Source: Cellulophaga algicola DSM 14237 (GTDB lineage Bacteria > Bacteroidota > Bacteroidia > Flavobacteriales > Flavobacteriaceae). From it: a stretch of DNA of 64,000 bases. The DNA lies in assembly GCF_000186265.1 (NCBI RefSeq), contig NC_014934.1:620001-684000 (forward strand), written 5' to 3'. This document shows positions 14,177 through 18,529 of the stretch, in pieces. Position 1 is the stretch's first letter. Every line of letters starts with the position of its first letter. The notes below the pieces were generated by a model. It did not search any database and was not told the origin of the DNA. It worked only from the letters and a program-made list of their open reading frames with translations. The position numbers and the translations under genes are program-made.

Positions 14177-14830
14177 TTGACAGAAATAGTCCAACATATA
14201 AAAAAGCATAGACGCTATAAAATTCTAGTATTCCTAACTATACTCGGTACTATATTACTTATCGCTAGGGTAATTTACAGCGAAACTATTTTTTTTACTT
14301 TTCTCCTTTGGAATCTATTTTTAGCCTTTTTACCCGTAGTTTTTTCTAAAGCCTTACGGTACAACCAAAAAATAAGTACGTCTAAATTTCTTAGCATACT
14401 TTTCGTTATTCTTTGGCTTTTATTCATCCCAAATAGTCCTTACATTATAACCGATCTAAAACATGTAGACAATGATTATGGCATCCAACTGTTTGATTTT
14501 CTGCTCATATTAATTTTTGCCATAAACGGCTTACTTATGGGAGTTATTTCTTTACTAGATATATTTCATCTGTTAACTCATAAGTACAGTACCAAAATTA
14601 CCCATCTTGTTATACTTAGCATTTGTCTACTTGGTGGATTCGGAATATTCCTAGGCAGATTTTTACGCTTCAATTCTTGGGATATTATTTCTAAACCCGA
14701 TATTCTATTCTACAGTATCTTCCATACCCTATTCATGAAAGAAACATGGATGTGGACGCTTATATTTGGAGGTTTTATGTGGGTTTCATTTGTTGCCATA
14801 AAACCTTTATTGAAAAGGAAGACACTATAA
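14177..14830 (+). CDS. DUF1361-family membrane protein
   Basis: 217 residues starting at a TTG (no in-frame ATG before the conserved core). About six hydrophobic helices with the DUF1361 hallmarks LLWNLFLAFLPV, FIPNSPYIITDLKH, FDFLLILIFAINGLLMG and GRFLRFNSWDI. It is an inner-membrane protein of unknown activity; conserved charged and polar residues sit at membrane edges. It precedes the regulator cluster on the same strand, but a 97-base gap holding an operator separates it from the next gene, so it may not belong to that transcript. Confidence 0.8.
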   Translation: MTEIVQHIKKHRRYKILVFLTILGTILLIARVIYSETIFFTFLLWNLFLAFLPVVFSKALRYNQKISTSKFLSILFVILWLLFIPNSPYIITDLKHVDNDYGIQLFDFLLILIFAINGLLMGVISLLDIFHLLTHKYSTKITHLVILSICLLGGFGIFLGRFLRFNSWDIISKPDILFYSIFHTLFMKETWMWTLIFGGFMWVSFVAIKPLLKRKTL

Positions 14831-14898: not shown

Positions 14899-14924
14899 AC
14901 TTACTTTGTATTTCAAAGTACTTT
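14899..14924. promoter_or_regulatory. Palindromic operator, copy 1
   Basis: Perfect inverted repeat TACTTTG-N5-CAAAGTA at 14902-14920, ending 7 bases before the ATG at 14928. A 26-bp block around it (14899-14924) recurs at 15863-15888 with only two mismatches. TTACTTTG (14901-14908) is one base off the -7 consensus TAnnTTTG, so a bound protein would block the promoter. The likely ligand is the winged-helix protein encoded at 15554, giving autoregulation. The repeat is seen directly; the binding protein is inferred. Confidence 0.75.
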
Positions 14925-14927
14925 AAG

Positions 14928-15551
14928 ATGGAATCAAAAAACTATTTAGACGATATACATGAAATCAAAAATTTGATGAACAAATCATCTCGTTTTATTT
15001 CTCTTAGTGGTTTATCTGGAATATTAGCCGGAGTCTATTCTTTAGTTGGCGCTTATTTTGCCAATAAAATTATTACAAACATTCAAAATACGTCTACCTA
15101 TAGTCAGAAGTTGTTCTTAAGTATTGGTGCTCCCGAACAGTTAATTGCGATTGCCTTAATCGTAATTATCGCCTCCATCCTTACAGGCGTAATTCTCACA
15201 CGAAGAAAGTCAAAAAAGAGTGGTGAAAACATATGGAACAGGACGTCTAAGCGTTTGCTTTTTAATTTTATGGTACCACTCCTTACGGGAGGGTTGTTCT
15301 GTCTCATTCTATTTCAAAATCAGACTTTGGGGCTTATTGCTCCTGCTACATTAATATTTTACGGTCTAGCTTGTTTAAATGCAAGTAAATATACCTTAGG
15401 AGATGTCCGTTATTTAGGATTAGCTAATATTATTATTGGTTTAATAGCTACACAATTTATAGGTTATGGTTTGTATTTTTGGGCCTTAGGCTTTGGATTT
15501 CTTCATATCCTTTACGGAATAGTGATGTATTATAAATACGATAGACAATAG
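14928..15551 (+). CDS. Four-helix membrane protein paired with the winged-helix regulator
   Basis: 207 residues, not a family I can name. A soluble, charged N-terminus (1-22) is followed by about six hydrophobic stretches that could form four to six transmembrane helices (SGLSGILAGVYSLVGAYF, LIAIALIVIIASILTGVIL, LLFNFMVPLLTGGLFCLIL and others), with a basic loop RRKSKKSGENIW. It ends two bases before the TTG of the regulator gene, so the two must be co-transcribed from the operator-bearing promoter. A sensor or partner role for the regulator is possible but unproven. Confidence 0.75.
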   Translation: MESKNYLDDIHEIKNLMNKSSRFISLSGLSGILAGVYSLVGAYFANKIITNIQNTSTYSQKLFLSIGAPEQLIAIALIVIIASILTGVILTRRKSKKSGENIWNRTSKRLLFNFMVPLLTGGLFCLILFQNQTLGLIAPATLIFYGLACLNASKYTLGDVRYLGLANIIIGLIATQFIGYGLYFWALGFGFLHILYGIVMYYKYDRQ

Positions 15552-15553
15552 AT

Positions 15554-15847
15554 TTGGGACTTATAAACAACATAAACAAGACATTTGATCATCGCATCAG
15601 ACTGGGCATGATGAGTATACTCATGGTGAATGAATATGCTGACTTTAATATGTTTAAAGAGTTGCTTGATGTTACAGACGGTAATTTAGCAAGCCATGCC
15701 AAAGCTTTAGAAAAAGAGGCGTATATCGTGGTAGAGAAACGATTTATAGGAAGAAAACCAAATACTAGATACGCTGCCACTCCATTAGGTAAAGAAGCAT
15801 TTAAAAAGCACATAGATGCTCTTGAAAATTTAATTAAAAAATTCTAA
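15554..15847 (+). CDS. Winged-helix transcriptional regulator (HTH_34 type)
   Basis: 97 residues from a TTG two bases after the preceding stop. FDHRIRLGMMSILM, then TDGNLASHAKALEKE (recognition helix) and KRFIGRKPNTRYAATPLGKEAF (wing) match the small MarR/ArsR-like family PF13601, which binds DNA as a dimer. No metal-binding cysteines, so it is not a classical ArsR metal sensor. Its most obvious targets are the two matching palindromes at 14902-14920 and 15866-15884, one in front of its own operon and one in front of the Coq4-like gene. Confidence 0.88.
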   Translation: MGLINNINKTFDHRIRLGMMSILMVNEYADFNMFKELLDVTDGNLASHAKALEKEAYIVVEKRFIGRKPNTRYAATPLGKEAFKKHIDALENLIKKF

Positions 15848-15862
15848 TCTATTTTTTTATCC

Positions 15863-15888
15863 ACTTACTTTGAAATTCAAAGTACTTT
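15863..15888. promoter_or_regulatory. Palindromic operator, copy 2
   Basis: TACTTTG-N5-CAAAGTA at 15866-15884, 17 bases before the ATG at 15902. The surrounding 26 bases match copy 1 at 24 positions. It also contains the near -7 element TTACTTTG (15865-15872). This places the downstream genes (Coq4-like and, by spacing, the next two or three) under the same predicted repressor. Confidence 0.75.
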
Positions 15889-15901
15889 TAATTTATAAAT
15901 T

Positions 15902-16357
15902 ATGAAAGCATTTATTTTTGAACAGCTCTATGAGGTGAGTAAAAAACCATATCAAAAGTATTTTAAGAAAAATAAGCCTTGGACGGTTACTGTGAAAGAA
16001 TTAGTAGCCCTACCTCCCAACTCATTAGGCGCTGAATTGTACCACTTTTTAACCAAGAATAATTTTGAATTACAGTCAAAGCTTGAAAGCCATGATATTT
16101 ACCATGTATTAACAAACATAGGAACGACAGTTCCAGAAGAGATTAGCATGCAATATTTTTTATGGGGAAATGGAAAAAGAAGTTTATACCTTTTTTCCGT
16201 ACTCACCATTGGCACTATTTTTTACTGCTCTCATTTTAAAAGGTTCCTTCAGGAATACAAAAGAGGGAAGCGTTCATCAAAATTTTATCAAATAGATTTT
16301 CAAAAATTAGTACACCTACCAATTCATAACATCAGAACTGCCTTCTTTATCAACTAA
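15902..16357 (+). CDS. Coq4-like protein
   Basis: 151 residues. The core LPPNSLGAELYHFL...HDIYHVLTNIGTTVPEE fits the Coq4 family: H64-D65-x-x-H68-x11-E80 is exactly the HDxxH(x11)E metal site described for it. Coq4 acts in ubiquinone biosynthesis in eukaryotes and proteobacteria, whereas Flavobacteriaceae normally use menaquinone, so a different substrate is likely. It is shorter than eukaryotic Coq4 (about 220-265). First gene after operator copy 2, and 10 bases before the large membrane-protein gene. Soluble, with no signal peptide. Confidence 0.75.
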   Translation: MKAFIFEQLYEVSKKPYQKYFKKNKPWTVTVKELVALPPNSLGAELYHFLTKNNFELQSKLESHDIYHVLTNIGTTVPEEISMQYFLWGNGKRSLYLFSVLTIGTIFYCSHFKRFLQEYKRGKRSSKFYQIDFQKLVHLPIHNIRTAFFIN

Positions 16358-16367
16358 AAATTATAGT

Positions 16368-17750
16368 ATGAACATCCATATCAAATCAATTTCAGCATCC
16401 TTAGTGTTTAGTGTACTGCTATATAGCAAGACTATGGGAATTAACCTTGTCATTCTTTCTTTAGTAATCATCAGTTTAGTACTCCTAGAGCATAAATCTC
16501 AAAAAGAAACTATAAAGTATGCCCTTACCTATCTTTTTACTGCATTAATGGTCTTTCTAGATCCTACTAATTTTAAGATTTTCGTTCACGCCATGGCGTT
16601 TCTAATTTATATGGGAAAAAGTATTGCACCCAAAAACTCCTTGTATTTAAGTTGGTTCATAGGGCTCACCAACATGGTATTGGCCTCTATTCATCAATTA
16701 AATAGTTATTTAACAAAAGAGGATCATAAAAACACTGCAGTATCTTCAAAAACTAAAACTATCCTCAAAGCTCTGGGCATCGCTTTAGGCTTAATCATAC
16801 TATTCTCCTTACTATACCAAAAGTCTAATCCTGTTTTCAGTGGCCTTATTTCTGCAATAAATTTTGATTTCTTAAGCTTTCCATGGCTCCTATTTACGGT
16901 ATTTGGATACTTTATCTTCTTACATATTTTAAAGCCATATTATCCAGAGACCCTAATAACCTTAGATCACGCACAAGGCAATACACTGAAAAAGTCTACC
17001 CCAAATTTTTCCTTAGAACAAAATAAAAAACTAGCCGATGAATACACCCTTGGCAGTATCATATTTATAGCATTAAATAGTTTGCTTTTTATATTTCTAA
17101 TAACCGATTTTATCTATCTGATAGACACTGACACAAGTACAAATTCTGAATACTCAAAATCTGTACATCAAGGAGTCTATGCCCTACTGTTATCAATTAT
17201 CTGCGCTATTGCAATTATTTTATATTTCTTTAGAGGTGATCTTAATTTTTACACCAAAAGTAAGAATATTAAGATCTTATGCTATATCTGGATTGCCATG
17301 AACCTTATTCTGGTCTTGTTTACAGGGTATAAGAATTATACATACGTGGCCACTTTAGGATTAACCTATAAAAGAATTGGAGTTTTTGTGTACTTACTAT
17401 TTATCCTCGCAGGTTTATGTACCACCTACTTGAAAGTTTCAAAAACCAAAAGTTTCATCTATTTAATACGGTCAAACGTTGCTGTAATTTTTGCAGTGCT
17501 ATTTGTAAGCGCCATAATTCCTTGGGATAAATCTATTACCTATTACAATTTAAATACTATTGAAAATGTAGATATTCAATACCTTATTGACTTAGGAAAC
17601 ACAAACAGCATTCAATTAAAAAAATATAGCGAGAAGAAAAAAGCAACTGCATTTGAAGCGAGCATTACTACTAAATATTCTCGCTTTATACACCAGGAGA
17701 AAGAAAAAAGTTGGCAGGAATATTCCATTTACTCCTTAATCTACCATTAA
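16368..17750 (+). CDS. Polytopic membrane protein, DUF4153/DUF4173-like
   Basis: 460 residues with about ten to twelve hydrophobic helices and a soluble C-terminal tail (about 395-460). The segment GLTYKRIGVFVYLLFILAGL preceded by LILVLFTGYKNYTYVATL matches what I recall of the DUF4153/DUF4173 membrane families, in which an R-x-G/Y-loop follows a long amphipathic helix. Function unknown in those families. It follows the Coq4-like gene by 10 bases and is followed by the next gene after one base, so it lies in the middle of the predicted operon under operator copy 2. Confidence 0.7.
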   Translation: MNIHIKSISASLVFSVLLYSKTMGINLVILSLVIISLVLLEHKSQKETIKYALTYLFTALMVFLDPTNFKIFVHAMAFLIYMGKSIAPKNSLYLSWFIGLTNMVLASIHQLNSYLTKEDHKNTAVSSKTKTILKALGIALGLIILFSLLYQKSNPVFSGLISAINFDFLSFPWLLFTVFGYFIFLHILKPYYPETLITLDHAQGNTLKKSTPNFSLEQNKKLADEYTLGSIIFIALNSLLFIFLITDFIYLIDTDTSTNSEYSKSVHQGVYALLLSIICAIAIILYFFRGDLNFYTKSKNIKILCYIWIAMNLILVLFTGYKNYTYVATLGLTYKRIGVFVYLLFILAGLCTTYLKVSKTKSFIYLIRSNVAVIFAVLFVSAIIPWDKSITYYNLNTIENVDIQYLIDLGNTNSIQLKKYSEKKKATAFEASITTKYSRFIHQEKEKSWQEYSIYSLIYH

Positions 17751-17751
17751 A

Positions 17752-18039
17752 ATGATGTCTTATTTCACCCATAAACTAAATAGAATAGCTGTAAGGATTA
17801 CGTTATATTCTTTTAGTCTCGAGACAGTGTTATTCCTTGTCGTTTTAGCCGTAGAAACTATTACAGTAGTAGCAATCATACCTGTTTTGATTGCAGCCCT
17901 ACTGAACTTGATTATTCTAATCGTTTCAATTTTAAATACCTTAGTAAATTACAAAGATTTTGAAGAAAACATCAGCACTCTACTTATGGTTCTCATTAAC
18001 ATTGCTATAGGACTCTTATACCAGAATTTAATCAATTAG
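17752..18039 (+). CDS. Small hydrophobic membrane protein
   Basis: 95 residues starting at ATGATG one base after the preceding stop. Three hydrophobic stretches (about 18-40, 41-62 and 75-92) indicate a small integral membrane protein with no recognisable catalytic motif. The tight spacing means it is co-translated with the DUF4153/4173-like gene. I do not recognise the family. Confidence 0.7.
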   Translation: MMSYFTHKLNRIAVRITLYSFSLETVLFLVVLAVETITVVAIIPVLIAALLNLIILIVSILNTLVNYKDFEENISTLLMVLINIAIGLLYQNLIN

Positions 18040-18148
18040 AGTTTTAATGGCATCGTACTATAGTTTTTAGAAATACAATTCTGTGCGGTGTAAGGAACCG
18101 CTAATGTCAAATACAATTTTAACTAGTATCTCTTATTATTTAACTATC

Positions 18149-18529
18149 ATGAAATTTATTTTTAACAAAATTCACTTTACTGTTTTTAGTACAATTTTAG
18201 TTCTTGAGATTGCGATTGCTTACTTTTTAAAAACTGGATTCATAAGACATACTGTGGGTGATTTTCTCGTTGTAATACTTATCTATTGTTTTCTTAGAAG
18301 CTTTATAAAAACCAATCCGTTATACATGGCAATTGTAACGTTAGTTCTTTCTTATACGGTTGAGTTTTTACAACGAACTACATTTTTACAGCTCTTAAAC
18401 TTGGATCAAAATAAATGGGCCAACTTAATTTTTGGCAATAGTTTTAGCATACAGGATTTAGTAGCCTATACGCTTGGGGTAATTACTGTTTTTTATTTAG
18501 ATACAAGAAATTGGCTTCCTAAAGGATAA
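18149..18529 (+). CDS. DUF2809-family membrane protein
   Basis: 126 residues from the ATG at 18149, which matches the usual N-terminus of the family (MKFIFNKIHFTVF); an earlier GTG at 18083 or ATG at 18104 would add an unrelated leader. About four helices, with the DUF2809 signature F-x-R-x-x-x-GDFLVVILIYCFLRSF and FSIQDLVAYTLGV near the C-terminus. Inner membrane, function unknown. It is 109 bases after the preceding gene, so it may be the last gene of the operator-2 operon or have its own promoter. Confidence 0.8.
   Translation: MKFIFNKIHFTVFSTILVLEIAIAYFLKTGFIRHTVGDFLVVILIYCFLRSFIKTNPLYMAIVTLVLSYTVEFLQRTTFLQLLNLDQNKWANLIFGNSFSIQDLVAYTLGVITVFYLDTRNWLPKG

Follow-up and report, generated by a model that had tools for sequence, protein, structure and literature searches.

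Introduction

In the BlaI-BlaR1 and MecI-MecR1 systems, a small winged-helix repressor acts on its own operon and on cell-wall genes, and a membrane sensor is encoded alongside it. Genes of the PadR family are often paired with genes for small HAAS membrane proteins, and PadR operators differ from the one considered here. Here we describe a locus in a 64,000-nucleotide stretch of the Cellulophaga algicola DSM 14237 genome (contig NC_014934.1, positions 620,001 to 684,000; "the window" refers to this whole stretch), in which the gene for a 97-residue winged-helix protein of Pfam family HTH_34 (PF13601) follows a membrane-protein gene and lies between two copies of the palindrome TACTTTG-N5-CAAAGTA. 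Comparison of genome sequences indicates that these elements are probably part of a conserved, autorepressed membrane-gene regulon. The layout is shared with BlaI-BlaR1 and MecI-MecR1, although a sensor role for the membrane protein is only proposed here. Unlike BlaR1 and MecR1, this membrane protein has no reported protease or penicillin-binding domain, and we do not propose that proteolysis is involved.

The closest described proteins are known mainly as structures. PH1061 of Pyrococcus horikoshii (1ub9) was the sole sequence match among solved structures at E values up to 0.01 (1.2e-12) and also the best fold match; it is titled merely as a regulator homologue, and its operator, target or partner did not turn up in our searches. 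The next-best fold match was the PadR-family protein Rv3488 (5zi8/5zhc), a small winged helix with a TM score of about 0.75; unlike PadR, the window's regulator falls in HTH_34. CreD, of the CreBC-CreD system, is among the genes found behind the palindrome (referred to below as cargo), and whereas CreBC is a two-component system, the neighbor here is a one-domain winged-helix protein. A search of open-licence PMC papers found none that names the HTH_34 family (print beyond it may differ), none of the titles and abstract starts listed there describes the operator or the pair, and annotated plasmid records label HTH_34 genes just "transcriptional regulator." With an operator, a partner and a set of targets predicted for them, these genes could be put to the test.

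Results

Two copies of a palindrome flank an HTH_34 gene

An original prediction, made from the letters of the window, held that the same 26-bp block precedes two groups of membrane-linked genes and that a small repressor encoded between the blocks could control both. The elements at the center of this proposal are as follows.

14899-14924, plus strand: predicted operator 1, a ACTTACTTTG-TATTT-CAAAGTACTTT block; palindrome at 14902-14920, 7 bp before the membrane-protein start codon
14928-15551, plus strand: membrane protein of 207 amino acids, the regulator's partner, with a conserved N-terminal amphipathic helix
15554-15847, plus strand: HTH_34 winged-helix regulator of 97 amino acids; TTG start 2 bp past the preceding stop codon
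15852-15858, plus strand: T7 tract just upstream of operator 2
15863-15888, plus strand: predicted operator 2, a ACTTACTTTG-AAATT-CAAAGTACTTT block; palindrome at 15866-15884, 17 bp before the coq4-like start codon

The two blocks agree at 24 of 26 positions and the palindrome is exact in both, as had been claimed. Nor is the motif frequent elsewhere: the 4,888,353-base genome holds two exact copies of TACTTTG-N5-CAAAGTA, both at this locus, and a 24-base extended pattern, searched with up to three mismatches, matched these two places alone (reversed control, 0). We did not take the only one-mismatch copy, at 2,332,040, for an operator; its surroundings, read by eye, look like the coding sequence of the ribosomal-protein gene rpsI. 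Degenerate forms occurred at frequencies near those of controls (65 palindromes with up to two mismatches across the genome versus 51 in the control; 11 three-mismatch palindromes in the window versus 8.2 expected, which is not significant). Thus, only the exact and extended forms are informative, and we claim no wider regulon in this genome.

The regulator matched the HTH_34 profile at 7e-28 (97 bits versus a cut-off of 27), with residues 15 to 94 covering model positions 1 to 80 of 80, and no PadR Pfam family was found for it at E values up to 0.1. Its AlphaFold2 model (mean pLDDT, 90) shows a winged helix alone, ending in a long C-terminal helix, and 1ub9 ranked first in the fold search (TM score, 0.84), placing the protein with the PH1061-like winged-helix fold. 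The 97 residues include no separate ligand domain and no cysteine.

The membrane protein has no Pfam family above cut-off, and a Foldseek search returned no structural relatives (best E value, 0.89). It has five hydrophobic segments, and six membrane helices in its AlphaFold2 model (mean pLDDT, 83), in which the N-terminal helix scores low (54 to 62). In an alignment of 38 sequences, the first 41 residues contain 17 of the 39 invariant columns. The N-terminus is probably cytosolic, as judged from a basic loop.

The palindrome accompanies the regulator across Bacteroidota

To define orthologs, we used a set of 60 genomes, that of C. algicola included, of which 27 encode a close ortholog of the 97-amino-acid protein (at least 112 bits). 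Stretches of 3.3 kb were taken around the regulator in these 27 genomes and in three distant relatives (L043 to L045). Each of the 27 close-ortholog loci has two CTTTG-N5-CAAAG sites and no more, with the regulator gene between them, and the loci of the three distant relatives have none. A second set of named loci (L046 to L125), the top 80 among at least 584 relatives, picked on regulator similarity alone, has a site both upstream and downstream of the regulator in 80 of 80 cases. The expectation that the motif would recur beside orthologous genes was thus borne out in both sets. Because the sets share contigs (at least those of L046, L047, L052 and L055) and contain related species, these counts are not independent trials.

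The exact form ACTTTG-N5-CAAAGT occurs 63 times in the 27 close-ortholog genomes, with 54 copies flanking the regulator and 9 elsewhere, and 9 times in the 33 genomes without a close ortholog. Since the reversed control gave 24 over all 60 genomes, the 9 and 9 off-locus copies are at background, although one in G025 nonetheless looks real (see below).

Beyond these sets, the regulator profile matched in 83 of 148 Bacteroidota genomes at E values up to 1e-15, and we took from them the top 27 new loci and then 40 more at graded bit scores. At least one strict core site was present at 23 of the top 27; at the other four, the site departs from the core at one or two of 14 positions. Sites with at most two mismatches were found at all 20 loci scoring 116 to 133 bits and at all 11 scoring 87 to 100 bits. 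Spacing was examined at 53 loci (the 40, L043 to L045, and ten of the top 27 with fewer than two strict sites): a spacing of 5 gave a site at 42 of the 53, and each of nine other spacings gave 0 to 5. A homolog of the membrane-protein partner adjoins the regulator at 46 of 47 upper-scoring Bacteroidota loci, which make up the two upper groups (the exception is L146).

Cargo varies between loci and recurs at remote sites

The genes around the pair in the window are listed below.

14177-14830, plus strand: DUF1361 membrane protein, upstream of operator 1; a second-operon gene in many relatives
15902-16357, plus strand: Coq4-like protein of 151 amino acids (Pfam Coq4, 2.5e-11)
16368-17750, plus strand: DUF4153 membrane protein of 460 amino acids (Pfam, 9e-37)
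17752-18039, plus strand: membrane protein of 95 amino acids, no Pfam family
18149-18529, plus strand: DUF2809 membrane protein (Pfam, 9e-23; weak VanZ match under cut-off)

From its position upstream of operator 1, the DUF1361 gene probably lies outside the control of that operator, and since the DUF2809 gene begins 109 bp past the preceding gene, it may have a separate promoter. The Coq4 (PF05019) match scores 43.7 bits versus a cut-off of 22.9 but spans only model positions 124 to 217 of 221. The motif HDx2Hx11E (H64, D65, H68 and E80), which we take to be that of Coq4, is invariant in 20 of 20 aligned sequences, in keeping with assignment to this family. The closest solved relative by sequence is Alr8543 (6e12; E value, 0.0016). 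Flavobacteria are held to use menaquinone.

In the 80 named loci, cargo comprised DUF1361 (60 loci), DUF2809 (49), Coq4-like (46), DUF218 (24) and MPAB-type (7) genes. The Coq4-like enzyme, which the original prediction had treated as a defining part, is therefore optional cargo, and the core is the membrane-protein/HTH_34 pair. One DUF218 protein compared with the SanA model scored 203 bits, under its cut-off of 363, and the only HAAS match, in one cargo protein, was weak (0.012) and below cut-off. CreD is present in 39 of the 80 loci and DUF4153 in 35, with both in none and neither in 6; by coordinates, creD lies beside the regulator in 7 of the 27 close-ortholog genomes and DUF4153 in 12, with neither in 8 and both in none. 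That the two never occur together in the second operon suggests interchangeable roles. Among the cargo, CreD has the best known role: it keeps the envelope intact in Stenotrophomonas (PMC4689548). The creD family (PF06123) has no match in the window's genome. The predicted system would provide a candidate creD regulator for part of Bacteroidota and would bring DUF4153, DUF2809, DUF1361, the Coq4-like protein and a number of unnamed membrane proteins together in a common functional context.

We then scanned 299 genomes of the family with the extended pattern ACTTTGNANNNCAAAGTACTTT, with regulator presence not part of the scan. Matches were found in 129 genomes, with 0 for the reversed control among the matches listed, and in two genomes with a single listed site that were checked, the site is at the main locus. 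Five genomes have, among the matches listed, a site clearly away from another, and in all five the remote site adjoins a cargo family of the main locus. In G175, G409 and G378 this is a family of small membrane proteins with the motif IPLVAMQF (the G378 gene, on the minus strand, was read by eye, and the main locus of that genome was assigned from its paired sites); in G435 it is exosortase K. In G025 the site points at an unknown 105-amino-acid gene, with the start of an MPAB-type gene 44 bp off in the opposite direction. In the other four, the site points at the cargo gene in the main-locus orientation. These remote sites provide the best evidence that one regulator may act in trans on all sites. 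Among the other off-locus sites, those of G009 and G055 lie inside long open reading frames (ORFs) and that of G047 precedes a gene unlinked to this cargo; off-locus sites in G003, G006, G015, G035, G037 and others fell outside this reading.

Similar loci occur outside Bacteroidota

Outside Bacteroidota, coverage was by plasmid records only. A protein search of plasmid records returned 28 records, and all 28 loci were examined. A spacing-5 site with at most two mismatches is present at 9 of them, and nine other spacings gave 0 to 2 each. Two of the nine site-bearing loci belong to Bacteroidota, namely, Persicobacter and a Bacteroides plasmid with the order membrane protein, regulator, creD. 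The other seven lie outside the phylum and have 0 to 2 mismatches: three similar Streptomyces loci with one mismatch, a Thermomicrobium plasmid with an exact site beginning 54 bp before an annotated membrane-protein gene, and two-mismatch sites in a Chloroflexota plasmid, a haloarchaeon and Aureimonas. A scan of 20 of these records (10.5 Mb) gave 8 exact ACTTTG-N5-CAAAGT sites, every one of them at the HTH_34 locus, and 9 one-mismatch sites, 2 of them there. The system is not confined to Flavobacteriia: the site is present throughout Bacteroidota, and an archaeon and members of other phyla have it at some of their HTH_34 loci.

A hydrophobic ORF lies directly upstream of the regulator at 27 of the 28 plasmid loci, by a lenient test in which the ORF with the most hydrophobic segments was chosen, which favors a positive outcome. 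An alignment of 11 sequences could not establish homology of the membrane proteins across phyla: apart from the Bacteroides one, they share 14 to 19% identity with that of the window, and they agree in hydropathy and gene order alone. We tentatively suggest that the membrane protein and HTH_34 regulator may be an ancient module common to Bacteria and Archaea, in which the membrane protein would hold or release the repressor, the operator would predate several phyla (or have spread with the module), and the controlled genes would have been exchanged, with CreD and DUF4153 as interchangeable outputs; we give this broader proposal somewhat less than an even chance. It would be unusual, if true, for an operator to persist across phyla while the genes behind it are exchanged.

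Promoter geometry, proposed mechanism and alternatives

Bacteroidota promoters usually have -33/-7 spacing. In the 27 close-ortholog loci, the left half-site and the bases preceding it mostly read TTACTTTG, one base off TAnnTTTG, and the near -7 element that had been claimed is a fair reading. Upstream of TTACTTTG by 20 bp, at positions -26 to -24, the first sites of these loci most often have T, T and G, each in 20 to 22 of 27. TAnnTTTG and the SM5 box TAnnTTGY of Flavobacterium psychrophilum are given in PMC9723704. After the palindrome stands an outer arm, TACTTT (14918-14924 and 15882-15888 in the window), which is one-sided. In the named loci, all 80 first sites have it, as do 75 of 84 second sites if TTCTTT is allowed, and it is mirrored in none. 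The arm is missing from the Streptomyces site of L136.

We propose that the 97-amino-acid HTH_34 protein binds TACTTTG-N5-CAAAGTA as a dimer, and that the bound dimer would repress both its own two-gene operon, shared with the membrane protein, and the coq4-like/DUF4153/95-amino-acid/DUF2809 operon. Repression appears likeliest because the -7 box and the predicted start would lie beneath a dimer bound to the palindrome. Since the regulator has no separate ligand domain or cysteine, the signal would most likely come from the co-encoded membrane protein, whose constant pairing with the regulator points to a sensor and whose conserved N-terminal helix could keep the repressor at the membrane during disturbance of the envelope. 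The genes under control would encode mostly inner-membrane proteins for envelope integrity, with members that vary by genome: CreD or DUF4153, Coq4-like, DUF2809, DUF1361, SanA-like, exosortase K and MPAB-type proteins. What the genomes contain is the conserved association of regulator and putative operator, the two-site layout, and such operators beside the same cargo at remote places; from these we infer binding, repression, sensing and envelope function, and we consider it likely that the HTH_34 protein and its membrane partner are an autorepressed pair controlling envelope membrane genes through the palindrome. Thus, one regulator, two operators and a membrane-linked regulon stand as originally predicted, and repression itself is a deduction.

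Several observations weigh against this reading. Among HTH_34 paralogs scoring below 79 bits (nine, plus L043 to L045), a site is present in 1 of 12 and in none of the other 11, and no site is present at 19 of the 28 plasmid loci; the operator is therefore not universal in the HTH_34 family. Of the 36 Bacteroidota genomes (of 148) that carry creD, it lies, by coordinates, within 2 kb of the regulator in 14. Where creD is away from the regulator, 10 of 11 regulator-bearing genomes lack an upstream site; in the exception, G130, a site with two mismatches, 16 kb from the regulator, stands at the start of creD, and in G157, one of the ten, a two-mismatch match lies inside creD. In genomes without a regulator match, an upstream site was found in 0 of 8. 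This check omits G071, G092 and G188, which have weak partial regulator matches. A universal creD regulon is rejected on these counts. As for the promoter, TTG between -28 and -21, near the -33 position, occurs in 51 of 80 first sites, a count without a chance control, and it reads TAG in the window's genome. The one-sided outer arm means that the binding unit may exceed the palindrome. Finally, repression is preferred over activation from the position of the sites, and a sensing role for the membrane protein is deduced from co-occurrence only.

The alternative that survives best is that the regulator binds these sites but senses a small molecule, such as a quinone precursor or prenyl lipid that the Coq4-like protein would handle, so that the membrane protein is merely a target. 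A Coq4-like protein with a metal motif is encoded in 46 of 80 loci, its nearest solved relative is Alr8543, and in Aureimonas the site with two mismatches overlaps the start annotated for a polyprenyl diphosphate synthase gene; however, the membrane partner is steadier than any enzyme, both in Bacteroidota and, by the lenient test, on plasmids, and a 97-residue protein offers no separate ligand domain. We regard this explanation as unlikely, though it deserves more weight than the next. The regulator could instead be an activator or dual regulator, with the palindrome and the outer TACTTT arm recruiting RNA polymerase. The arm is nearly constant and unmirrored, which implies that the region downstream of the palindrome is separately constrained, yet the palindrome lies across the -7 region and the predicted start, whereas activators usually sit upstream of -33, and we find this improbable. 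Least credible, to the point of being very hard to sustain, is that the site is not the operator of the neighboring regulator and instead belongs to the promoter or start site that these genes have in common, as a sigma-factor box that is symmetric by chance: TACTTTG followed by a pyrimidine does resemble the F. psychrophilum SM5 box TAnnTTGY as given in PMC9723704, and the pyrimidine is present at 27 of 27 first sites of close orthologs and at 74 of 80 in the named loci, but such a box would be expected genome-wide while the exact palindrome occurs only twice, the pyrimidine is missing at 21 of 27 second sites, and similar sites lie near HTH_34 genes under other promoter rules (Streptomyces, Thermomicrobium and the haloarchaeon).

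Additional features

The Aureimonas site (L177:2397-2415) stands beside an HTH_34 pair and overlaps the annotated start of the polyprenyl diphosphate synthase gene. In some genomes, genes for exosortase K come after the main locus; in another, such a gene stands behind a remote predicted operator (L236:938-1492, L094:12388-12903). The small membrane family IPLVAMQF..EV.W recurs behind the predicted operator, at main loci and at remote sites, and two members scanned have no Pfam family above cut-off. Its members include the following.

L234:1601-2161: IPLVAMQF family member
L238:1512-1793: IPLVAMQF family member
L237:1185-1478, minus strand: IPLVAMQF family member
L241:1181-1492: IPLVAMQF family member

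The T7 tract that stands before operator 2 in the window is also seen in front of 67 of 84 second sites in the 80 named loci, and in front of none of their 80 first sites; it may be a terminator of the regulator operon or a promoter spacer element.

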